From Pedobacter cryoconitis (GTDB lineage: Bacteria; Bacteroidota; Bacteroidia; Sphingobacteriales; Sphingobacteriaceae), in NCBI RefSeq assembly GCF_014200595.1, contig NZ_JACHCG010000002.1, positions 372,001-436,000 on the forward strand: DNA of 64,000 bases, read 5' to 3'. The notes under the pieces are model-generated. The model ran no database searches and was not told where the DNA came from. It saw only the letters and a program-made list of their open reading frames with translations. The first letter of the stretch is position 1. Every line of letters begins with the position of its first letter. Positions 45,055 to 47,142 of this stretch are shown in pieces. Made by a program: the position numbers and the translations under genes.

Positions 45055-45276
45055 TTATTTTTTAGCTTCAGCAGCTGGTTTAACTTCAGTAGTAGTAGTT
45101 TTAACCGCTGTATCTTTAACTGTTGAATCTTTAACAGTAGTATCAACGTCAGTAGTAACAACTGAAGAATCAGTTACTGTAGTGTCAGTTGCACCAGCTT
45201 TTTTTTCTGAGTTACATGCTGCTACTGATAAAGAGATTGCTAAAGCTAAAAAGCCGAATTTGAATAAGTTTTTCAT
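45055..45276 (-). CDS. Small low-complexity lipoprotein
   Basis: A 73 aa predicted lipoprotein: signal peptide MKNLFKFGFLALAISLS with lipobox SVAAC (Cys21). The mature 52 residues consist almost only of T, V, D, K, S and A in a loose repeat of the type D(T/S)(T/S)VKDS, with no fold expected. It has its own terminator, and its high-quality signal and stop context argue for a real gene. Function unknown; such tails may act as envelope spacers. It is divergent from the ECF sigma gene with 141 bp between, so both could share regulation. Confidence 0.75.
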   Translation of the reverse strand: MKNLFKFGFLALAISLSVAACNSEKKAGATDTTVTDSSVVTTDVDTTVKDSTVKDTAVKTTTTEVKPAAEAKK

Positions 45277-45334
45277 TTGAATTCTATTTAAAATAATTAA
45301 TTAATTTTACAGATTAATACCACAATGATCAAAA

Positions 45335-45393
45335 GGTAACCCACTATTTTTAAAAAAGATTTAAATAATTTTTTTGTCTAATATTGGGTTACC
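45335..45393. promoter_or_regulatory. Inverted repeat upstream of the ECF sigma gene
   Basis: GGTAACCCA (45335-45343) returns inverted as TGGGTTACC (45385-45393); with one mismatch the arms extend to 14 bp. The 41 bp spacer is AT-rich. It lies 25 bp before the sigma gene and about 60 bp before the divergent lipoprotein gene, so it may control either or both. Confidence 0.55.
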
Positions 45394-45417
45394 ATTCACG
45401 TATAAATGTATTAATTG

Positions 45418-45984
45418 GTGAGTAACAAGTTAAGCGATTCAGTTCCAACAGATAGAGAGGTAGTTTTAGGGATACTAAATAACTCGGAAGATGCACTTAA
45501 TAAGCTGTACGTCGGGTATTTTCCGATGATTTTGCAGTTTATTATAAATAATAACGGTGATGAGGATGATGCAAAAGATGTCTATCAGGAAGCGATTATT
45601 ATTTTATATAATAAAATTAAGAGCGGAGACTTTGAGTTAAGCAGCAAACTTAAGACTTATATATATTCAGTTTGCAGACGTATTTGGCTAAAAAAGCTTG
45701 CACAGCAAAGCAAAAAGACAAATAATGTTTCTGATTTTGAAGATGTAGTGTCAGTAGAGGTTGATTTAGAGTATCATGAAGAGAAGGATCTTCAGTTTGA
45801 AAAGATGGGTTCGGCACTTCAGAACCTGGGGGAACCCTGCAAAACTATTATTCAGGATTTTTATATAAATAATCTCTCCATGCAGGATATCTGTGAGAAA
45901 TTTGGCTACACCAATACGGATAATGCCAAAACTCAGAAATATAAATGTTTGCAGAGATTAAAGAAATTATTTTTTCAATCTTAA
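45418..45984 (+). CDS. ECF sigma-70 family RNA polymerase sigma factor
   Basis: A 188 aa extracytoplasmic-function sigma factor. No ATG is available; GTG 45418 or the adjacent TTG 45415 must serve as start. Region 2 is at about 28-95 (LYVGYFPMILQFI, DEDDAKDVYQEAIIILYNKI, LKTYIYSVCRRIW), and region 4 at about 125-188 with a helix-turn-helix around LSMQDICEKFGY. A linker rich in acidic residues joins them. The downstream gene, 7 bp away, encodes an anti-sigma-like membrane protease, so the two should form a sensor pair. Confidence 0.88.
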   Translation: MSNKLSDSVPTDREVVLGILNNSEDALNKLYVGYFPMILQFIINNNGDEDDAKDVYQEAIIILYNKIKSGDFELSSKLKTYIYSVCRRIWLKKLAQQSKKTNNVSDFEDVVSVEVDLEYHEEKDLQFEKMGSALQNLGEPCKTIIQDFYINNLSMQDICEKFGYTNTDNAKTQKYKCLQRLKKLFFQS

Positions 45985-45991
45985 GTACGGT

Positions 45992-47086
45992 ATGAGGAAC
46001 GACATAGAATTAGATGCTATCATTGAAGATTACCTCAGGGGTAAACTTACAGCCGCAGAAGCAGAAGCTTTTGATAAATTGCGTGCCAATGATCCTGTAA
46101 TTGATCATAAAGTAGTTGCACATAAGGTTTTTATGGACGCAATAAAGCAATATGGTAAAGTCCTTTCTTTGAAAGAGCAGATGGACAGGGCCCATGCCGG
46201 AATAAATGTAACTGCACTGAGCGAAGAGCTTAGACCGCATCCTTCATTTATTATTAATATGTGGCGCAAAAATAAATCGGCAATGGCCATTGCTGCCTCA
46301 TTTATCCTGTTAACTATATTCTCTATTTATTCTATACAGCATAATACCTTGCAAAATGGTAGTTATGAAGTGATGCGAAGAGAGATTACCAATATCAAAA
46401 ACAGTCAGAATAAATTGGTAAGAACTATCAATTCAAGTCCTAAAACTGAAAAGGGGCATGTCCGGTCAGCTCAATTTGGCGGAACAGGGTTTGCTTTAAC
46501 TGCAAATGGATATTTGTGTACAAATTACCATGTGGTAAGAGATGCAGATTCAGTATATGTACAAAATAATAAAGGAGACTCTTATAAAGTAAAGGTTGTT
46601 TACCGTGATCCACAGTATGACATTGCGATCCTGAAAATTATTGATGAGTCATTTACACCACTTTCTGCTATTCCATATAAATTGAAGAAAAATAGTATTG
46701 GAATGGGTGAGAATGTATATACGTTAGGTTATCCAAAGGATGATGCTGTATTGGGTGAAGGTTATATCAGCTCAAAAACAGGCCATGTAGGTGATACTAC
46801 GCAATACCAGGTTTCTATTCCAATTAATCCTGGAAATAGCGGTGGCCCGTTATTGGATAACTATGGTAATATCATCGGTGTGATTACTGCGAAAGAAAAT
46901 CAGGTTGATGGTGCAACATTTGCCATCAAATCTAAATACATTCTGGAAGCTTTAAATGCAATTCCTCAGGATTCATTGGGTAAGAAGGTTGTCTTTGCTA
47001 AAAAGAATCCTTTACAGGGTTTAAACAGAACTAAACAAATAGATAAGATTGAAAACTATGTCTATATGATCAAAGTATATAATTAA
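45992..47086 (+). CDS. Anti-sigma-like N-terminus fused through one TM helix to a trypsin/HtrA-type serine protease
   Basis: A 364 aa membrane protein in three parts. Residues 1-90 are cytoplasmic and resemble the zinc-free anti-sigma starts of Bacteroidota (EDYLRGKLTAAEAEAFDKL, then DPVIDHKV). Residues 96-114 form one transmembrane helix (SAMAIAASFILLTIFSIYS) preceded by WRKNK, which sets the N-terminus inside. Residues 155-335 are a periplasmic trypsin-like domain with an intact triad: His180 in TNYHVV, Asp210 in YDIAILKI, Ser283 in GNSGGPLL. There is no PDZ domain. It follows the ECF sigma gene by 7 bp, so it probably holds that sigma and releases it when the protease part senses a signal (inference). 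Confidence 0.85.
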   Translation: MRNDIELDAIIEDYLRGKLTAAEAEAFDKLRANDPVIDHKVVAHKVFMDAIKQYGKVLSLKEQMDRAHAGINVTALSEELRPHPSFIINMWRKNKSAMAIAASFILLTIFSIYSIQHNTLQNGSYEVMRREITNIKNSQNKLVRTINSSPKTEKGHVRSAQFGGTGFALTANGYLCTNYHVVRDADSVYVQNNKGDSYKVKVVYRDPQYDIAILKIIDESFTPLSAIPYKLKKNSIGMGENVYTLGYPKDDAVLGEGYISSKTGHVGDTTQYQVSIPINPGNSGGPLLDNYGNIIGVITAKENQVDGATFAIKSKYILEALNAIPQDSLGKKVVFAKKNPLQGLNRTKQIDKIENYVYMIKVYN

Positions 47087-47103: not shown

Positions 47104-47142
47104 AAAACCCCGAAACATAATGCTTGTTTCGGGGTTTTGTTT
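47104..47142 (+). terminator. Terminator of the ECF sigma/protease operon
   Basis: A 14 bp perfect stem AAAACCCCGAAACA/TGTTTCGGGGTTTT (47104-47117 with 47125-47138), then a T-rich run. Confidence 0.92.

Follow-up and report, generated by a model that had tools for sequence, protein, structure and literature searches.

The window, by which we mean the whole 64,000-nucleotide stretch of Pedobacter cryoconitis DNA analyzed here (contig NZ_JACHCG010000002.1), contains two adjacent genes that very probably constitute an operon for an envelope sigma factor and its anti-sigma factor, the latter being a one-chain membrane protein that combines a putative sigma brake with a trypsin-type protease (cf. 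Table 1). This assignment was made because the two genes are neighbors in 86 of 87 loci, are absent together, and because the N-terminal domain of the second product is common to zinc-type anti-sigma factors. Two genes with a promoter facing their own operon are the usual layout of sigma/anti-sigma pairs. The gene pair, its domain layout, the conserved catalytic residues, and the conserved promoter with its target genes can all be read from the sequences themselves. Whether the pair is an autoregulated switch of the envelope with a site-1-type protease built into the anti-sigma factor is, in our judgment, an even call.

Table 1. Features of the two-gene unit and its surroundings (positions are those of the window; residues are those of the fusion protein).
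Feature	Position	Strand	Basis and remarks
Small Thr/Asp-rich lipoprotein, 73 aa, predicted regulon member	45055..45276	-	signal-like N-terminus
Same motif as the operon promoter, facing the divergent lipoprotein gene	45314..45342	-	motif search
Predicted sigma-dependent promoter of the operon, GGGTTAC-N15-GTATTAA	45386..45414	+	GTG start 3 nt downstream
ECF sigma factor gene	45418..45984	+	GTG start; in-frame TTG at 45415; 86 orthologues aligned
Anti-sigma/trypsin-type protease fusion, 364 aa	45992..47086	+	ORF, Pfam, homologue alignment
N-terminal cytoplasmic anti-sigma-like domain, residues 1-70	45992..46201	+	hhalign to zinc-type and TPR/other-type partners
Single predicted transmembrane helix, residues 97-115	46280..46336	+	hydrophobicity
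Periplasmic linker, residues 116-159	46337..46468	+	least conserved; presumed region of the site-1 cut
Trypsin-type protease domain, residues 164-297	46481..46882	+	Trypsin_2; H180 46529-46531, D210 46619-46621, S283 46838-46840
Conserved C-terminal extension, residues 315-364	46934..47083	+	alignment; place of the PDZ domain in HtrA proteases
Terminator-like inverted repeat with a T run behind it, end of the two-gene unit	47108..47134	+	judged by eye

Judged by its profile matches, the product of the first gene is an ECF sigma factor. It was recognized by the Pfam model Sigma70_r2 (PF04542; E = 4.3e-8, 33.3 bits at a cut-off of 24) and by the NCBIfam model sigma70-ECF (TIGR02937; 74.9 bits, cut-off 42.9). 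Region 4 gave no match in Pfam; the TIGR02937 match reaches residue 184 of 189, and the C-terminal block is strongly conserved in the alignment of 86 orthologues. The fusion gene follows after a gap of 7 nt, and both open reading frames were found where the preliminary description had placed them. Its product passed the Pfam cut-offs only for Trypsin_2 (E = 1.3e-25, residues 164-297) and Trypsin. A Pfam scan of the whole protein at E ≤ 1 yielded neither PDZ nor FecR nor any anti-sigma model, and the HtrA/DegS-like NCBIfam models listed for it were all under their cut-offs; by sequence, the best solved relatives of the protease domain are DegP/HtrA proteases. The catalytic residues His180, Asp210, and Ser283, already noted in the preliminary description, proved to be unchanged in the alignment of all 87 fetched homologues, which rules out the reading as a pseudo-protease. 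Gly281 and Gly284 are likewise invariant, position 282 is Asn in 83 of the 87 proteins, and position 285 is Gly in 79. The term 'receptor', also used in that description, is unsupported, as the Pfam scan of the fusion protein indicated no ligand-binding domain. The C-terminal extension aligns in many trypsin-only relatives, too. In other Bacteroidota (loci L093 and L095), this trypsin subfamily is joined, extension included, to MORN repeats, with no sigma gene in the fetched stretch.

The anticipated architecture of a cytoplasmic segment, one membrane helix, and an outer trypsin domain was borne out by the homologues. On a hydrophobicity scale, each of the 87 proteins has one candidate membrane segment, scoring above 1.6 in 85 of them (1.46 and 1.59 in L084 and L085), and a second segment above 1.6 was found in none. 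A positive-inside flank had been proposed as well, and it holds for most of these proteins: the charges beside the helix favor an inside N-terminus in 70 proteins, are tied in 11, and point the other way in six. Within the helix, Ala101-Ala102 is invariant across 19 aligned rows. Residues 160-330 have a mean pairwise identity of 0.51 and residues 6-70 one of 0.31; it is 0.23 in the linker, where inspection of the alignment revealed no conserved cut motif.

On profile evidence, the N-terminal domain can be called an anti-sigma domain through its homology to intermediate sequences, not through a direct match, because the profiles of its relatives match and the direct search of the PDB was negative. 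As a single sequence, the N-terminus of the fusion protein reached zf-HC2 only below the Pfam threshold (E = 0.23). When compared by hhalign, the profile of the protease family matched seven cysteine-type proteins (one member was tested by Pfam and exceeded the zf-HC2 cut-off) with E = 8.7e-10 over 69 columns of the N-terminal domain, and the set of tetratricopeptide and other types with E = 3.5e-14 over the domain plus the membrane helix; the E-values of two unrelated controls were 0.13 and 0.16. When N-termini were combined into one profile (24 rows, the cysteine type included), four of its top six PDB hits were anti-sigma factors: 3hug_B, which we take to be RslA (E = 1.9e-4), and, with weak E-values, RsiW (0.021), DdvA (0.033), and RsrA (0.16). 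The profile of 16 protease-type N-termini alone retrieved no anti-sigma factor among the best 60 of 98 PDB hits. Both zinc-motif cysteines are absent from the window protein, for which a likeness to zinc-free anti-sigma factors had been claimed at the outset.

The fusion protein is widely distributed. A match at E ≤ 1e-15 was found in 142 of the 151 genomes of the Sphingobacteriaceae family, five of these being trypsin-only; an orthologue is thus present in 137 genomes (132 covering residues ≤14 to ≥360, five partial) and lacking in 14. Outside the family, the class search (295 genomes, E ≤ 1e-22, up to six candidates scored in each) revealed the orthologue in at least 33 of 285 class genomes, the carriers being spread over nine family codes. 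This distribution rules out a chance reading frame or layout, and the supposition that such pairs are widespread in Bacteroidota was found to be true for part of the phylum. The fetched sigma-type loci comprised 89 rows, two of them duplicates, and therefore 87 distinct genomes, including L059 and L061, for which the best pairwise match begins only at residue 80 or 47. In all 87, the anti-sigma and protease parts share one open frame. In 86 of them, a sigma gene of the same orientation lies directly upstream, the remaining locus (L063) being at a contig end, and the gap between the two genes ranges from -95 to +94 nt across these 86 loci with ORF starts called mechanically. By comparison, no sigma hit (E ≤ 1e-3) was present within the stretch fetched around any of 28 trypsin-only homologues, so that chance adjacency is ruled out. 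The presence of a sigma gene beside the homologues, which had been suggested as a check, was in this way confirmed for full-length proteins. All 15 full-length loci from named records among the best 80 of 581 relatives also have an adjacent sigma gene, though at least two of them (L148 and L151) were already in the set of 87 (as G120 and G051); they originate from Pedobacter, Mucilaginibacter, Sphingobacterium, Chitinophaga, Hymenobacter, and metagenome assemblies of the same groups. None of the 14 family genomes devoid of the protease, six of which are assemblies less than 90% complete, has the orthologous sigma factor, and one has a weaker paralogue (E = 2.6e-29).

A search of 296 phylum genomes for related sigma factors gave a match at E ≤ 1e-25 in 58, and the neighborhoods of a subset of 20 non-orthologous matches were fetched. 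The product of the downstream gene has a similar N-terminus in 14 of them: seven proteins are of a Cys-x2-Cys type (one cut by a contig end), four were read as a tetratricopeptide type, and three belong to another type, with one protein of each type tested in Pfam and no match obtained for the last. No such N-terminal partner was seen downstream in the other six. Since related sigma factors are paired with the same N-terminal domain carrying other outer parts (tetratricopeptide, zinc), the protease appears to fill the sensor position of the anti-sigma partner. At loci L228-L230 (family code f15), an anti-sigma-like protein of about 285 residues is encoded downstream of the related sigma factors, that of L228 having no Pfam match at E ≤ 0.01. 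At L231, L234, and L243, no anti-sigma-like partner was seen downstream of the sigma gene; the genes found there presumably encode two small thioredoxin-like secreted proteins and one YceI-like protein. A quick sigma tree of 56 rows (36 hand-chosen from 86 protease-type sigma factors plus 20 others) placed the protease-type sigma factors on one side of a branch with an SH-aLRT of 86. In a careful tree of 54 rows, from which the long-branch rows L241 and L247 were left out, the protease-bearing sigma factors did not form one clade and the group required two changes. One origin was recovered in 6% of the bootstrap trees, and a single origin of the protease partner is thus unsupported by this tree, the strongly supported branches of which are compatible with one origin. 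In a mirror-tree analysis, the sigma factor correlated with the protease domain (0.86) and with the N-terminal domain (0.81), giving no contrast between the domains.

The predicted promoter is conserved along with the genes. Upstream of the sigma gene, the strict motif was found in 58 and the relaxed one in 76 of 86 loci, being absent in its relaxed form from 10, and GGGTTAC was present in 78, whereas mononucleotide shuffles gave 0.24 on average. A second GGGTTAC...GTATTAA was noticed by eye further upstream in L004, L005, L008, L010, L013, L015, L016, L019, and L020. In 53 of the 76 loci with a relaxed promoter, the -10-like element is followed by the start codon of the sigma gene at a distance of 0, 2, or 3 nt, from which a leaderless or almost leaderless sigma mRNA is predicted. 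The window contains two promoter sites against 0.03 expected. With the strict pattern, searched in 25 genomes, all 16 genomes of the genus had at least one site (41 in total, 2 for a control pattern); the sigma site was present in 15 and the lipoprotein site in 14 of them, and G702 had neither. In 101 genomes of the family (N14-16), about 220 sites were found versus 23 for the control pattern. A site occurred in each of the 89 genomes that have the orthologue and, among the 12 that lack it, in one (G043); this is not an independent test because the operon's own promoter was counted. Twenty sites away from the sigma locus in other genera were drawn from among the matches listed for these 101 genomes: 12 precede a lipoprotein gene of the same family, five precede a gene for a protein of about 205 residues (two were tested, both being DUF4294), and three have no clear target. 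At L264 and L270, the lipoprotein is present in two copies, both of which have a site of their own. The 73-residue lipoprotein of the window has no Pfam match over the cut-off, and its sequence is variable outside the signal region. The genome to which the window belongs has 11 relaxed sites versus 3 control matches. Eight of them are inside ORFs, which rules out a large regulon at the promoter stringency used, and three precede genes, i.e. the sigma-protease operon, the gene for the 73-residue lipoprotein, and that for a DUF4349 lipoprotein; in two other tested genomes, too, a site is followed by a DUF4349 gene. As the promoter faces its own operon and only three of the 11 sites precede genes, the pair may well be a switch for the envelope that regulates itself and has a small predicted regulon.

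In view of the layout, of a promoter that faces its own operon, and of the conservation of the active site, the genes are best read as a sigma/anti-sigma pair with a proteolytic sensor. At rest, residues 1-90 would retain the sigma factor at the inner membrane, and the periplasmic trypsin-type domain would be idle. A disturbance of the envelope would turn the protease on, and it would then cut the weakly conserved juxtamembrane linker, that of a neighboring subunit being a likelier substrate than that of its own chain; trimer formation and cutting of a neighbor are suggested by analogy with HtrA biology and AlgW. A site-2-type protease of the M50 family, for which the genome encodes one candidate (PF02163, Peptidase_M50; E = 4.3e-58), and cytoplasmic proteases would subsequently release the sigma factor. 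If it binds the N-terminal domain and reads the GGGTTAC promoter as we presume, the freed sigma factor would transcribe its own operon, the genes of the small lipoprotein and the DUF4349 lipoprotein, and, in some other genera, that of the DUF4294 protein. That the protease cuts the fusion protein and frees the sigma factor is plausible, and the full self-cutting cascade has at best an even chance. More tentatively, at somewhat short of even, we propose that one polypeptide acts both as anti-sigma factor and as site-1 protease, cutting itself or its neighbor in an oligomer upon envelope disturbance, and that this minimal envelope-stress system is a self-contained switch conserved over Sphingobacteriaceae, Chitinophagales, and Hymenobacter. 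Several findings speak against the autoregulated pair with a built-in protease: the poor conservation of the linker (0.23 versus 0.51 for the protease), in which no cut motif was seen, the finding of no PDZ or other sensing domain, the 10 of 86 loci without a relaxed promoter, the failure of the careful tree to give one clade, and the negative direct PDB search.

An alternative that we consider unlikely is that the N-terminal domain holds the sigma factor, that another site-1 protease or a conformational change frees it, and that the trypsin domain is a periplasmic quality-control effector raised by autoregulation. HtrA proteases are common regulon members of envelope sigma factors, and in 16 of 65 trypsin-only loci, drawn from the best 80 of 581 relatives, the protease gene is a separate one and is preceded at 0.7-2 kb by a weak sigma hit (18-34 bits). 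The missing cut site in the linker and the MORN fusions of the same subfamily, which have no sigma gene nearby, would also suit an effector. Against this, all sigma-linked orthologues fetched have the protease and the anti-sigma part in one covalent chain, the protease takes the place of the different outer parts seen in related systems, and the genome encodes a second, separate Trypsin_2 protein. Distinctly improbable, in our opinion, is a protease that serves as an off-switch or ligand trimmer and destroys an activating envelope component, perhaps the regulon lipoprotein in a feedback loop, with the sigma factor freed by other means: the lipoprotein gene has a strict promoter in 14 of 16 genus genomes and accounts for 12 of the 20 distant sites fetched in other genera, but the lipoprotein varies outside its signal region. 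Finally, it is very improbable that the N-terminal domain is an activator or scaffold of the sigma factor and not its inhibitor, in view of its profile match to zinc-type anti-sigma domains (E = 8.7e-10) with clean controls and of a two-gene, self-promoted layout typical of sigma/anti-sigma pairs, even if the search with protease-type N-termini alone gave no anti-sigma factor and some regulators, such as RskA, have a dual role according to an excerpt of PMC7509140.

The preferred reading, a sigma/anti-sigma pair with a built-in proteolytic sensor, shares with RseA-DegS-RseP and MucA-AlgW a membrane anti-sigma factor, a periplasmic trypsin/HtrA-type protease, a site-2 protease, and an autoregulated ECF sigma factor. 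In the sigmaE system of E. coli, the membrane anti-sigma factor RseA, the separate periplasmic site-1 protease DegS, and the site-2 protease RseP control an autoregulated ECF sigma factor. AlgW of Pseudomonas is described, in the excerpted text of PMC8545111, as a PDZ-bearing site-1 protease separate from the anti-sigma factor. Whereas RseA-DegS and MucA-AlgW are two proteins with a PDZ sensor, the window protein is one chain in which no PDZ was found; it would work like DegS/RseA, and the union of both parts in one chain, with no PDZ found, would be new relative to that system. As a one-chain switch with a periplasmic part proposed to start the cascade, it also resembles RsgI and other SEAL-domain anti-sigma factors of Firmicutes; for RsgI, the available part of PMC12203970 reports autocleavage of the periplasmic part followed by RseP and a cytoplasmic ATP-dependent protease. 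However, these control a different sigma type through an autocleaving SEAL domain, while the window protein has a trypsin-type domain with a catalytic triad and no SEAL. Dma of Bacteroides (ECF21) is likewise a Bacteroidota-specific one-chain anti-sigma factor with an unusual outer part, so the phylum has other unusual one-chain sigma brakes (PMC13088901); in the excerpt of that source, Dma proteins span both membranes and no protease domain is mentioned, in contrast to the one helix plus protease domain of the window protein. With the class I anti-sigma domains of the zf-HC2 type (ASDI), the N-terminal domain has in common the 69 aligned columns and a gene beside that of the sigma factor, but it lacks both of their zinc-motif cysteines. 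The layout of a sigma factor with a one-chain anti-sigma/protease was undescribed in the titles and abstract starts of the literature matches listed, and it may have been mentioned earlier in the 2021 ECF reclassification.

According to the part of a survey available to us (PMC7406223), class I anti-sigma domains are found beside only 6% of Bacteroidetes ECF sigma factors. This figure leaves the control of the remaining ones to be explained, and the fusion would be a well-conserved answer for one sigma group. Since the promoter is defined, the predicted regulon small, and the catalytic serine a single one, the mechanism of sigma release is directly testable. If the proposal is true, a sensing protease and a sigma brake can be fused so that no separate site-1 protease is needed, and the two-protein step of DegS/RseA would be collapsed into one molecule.
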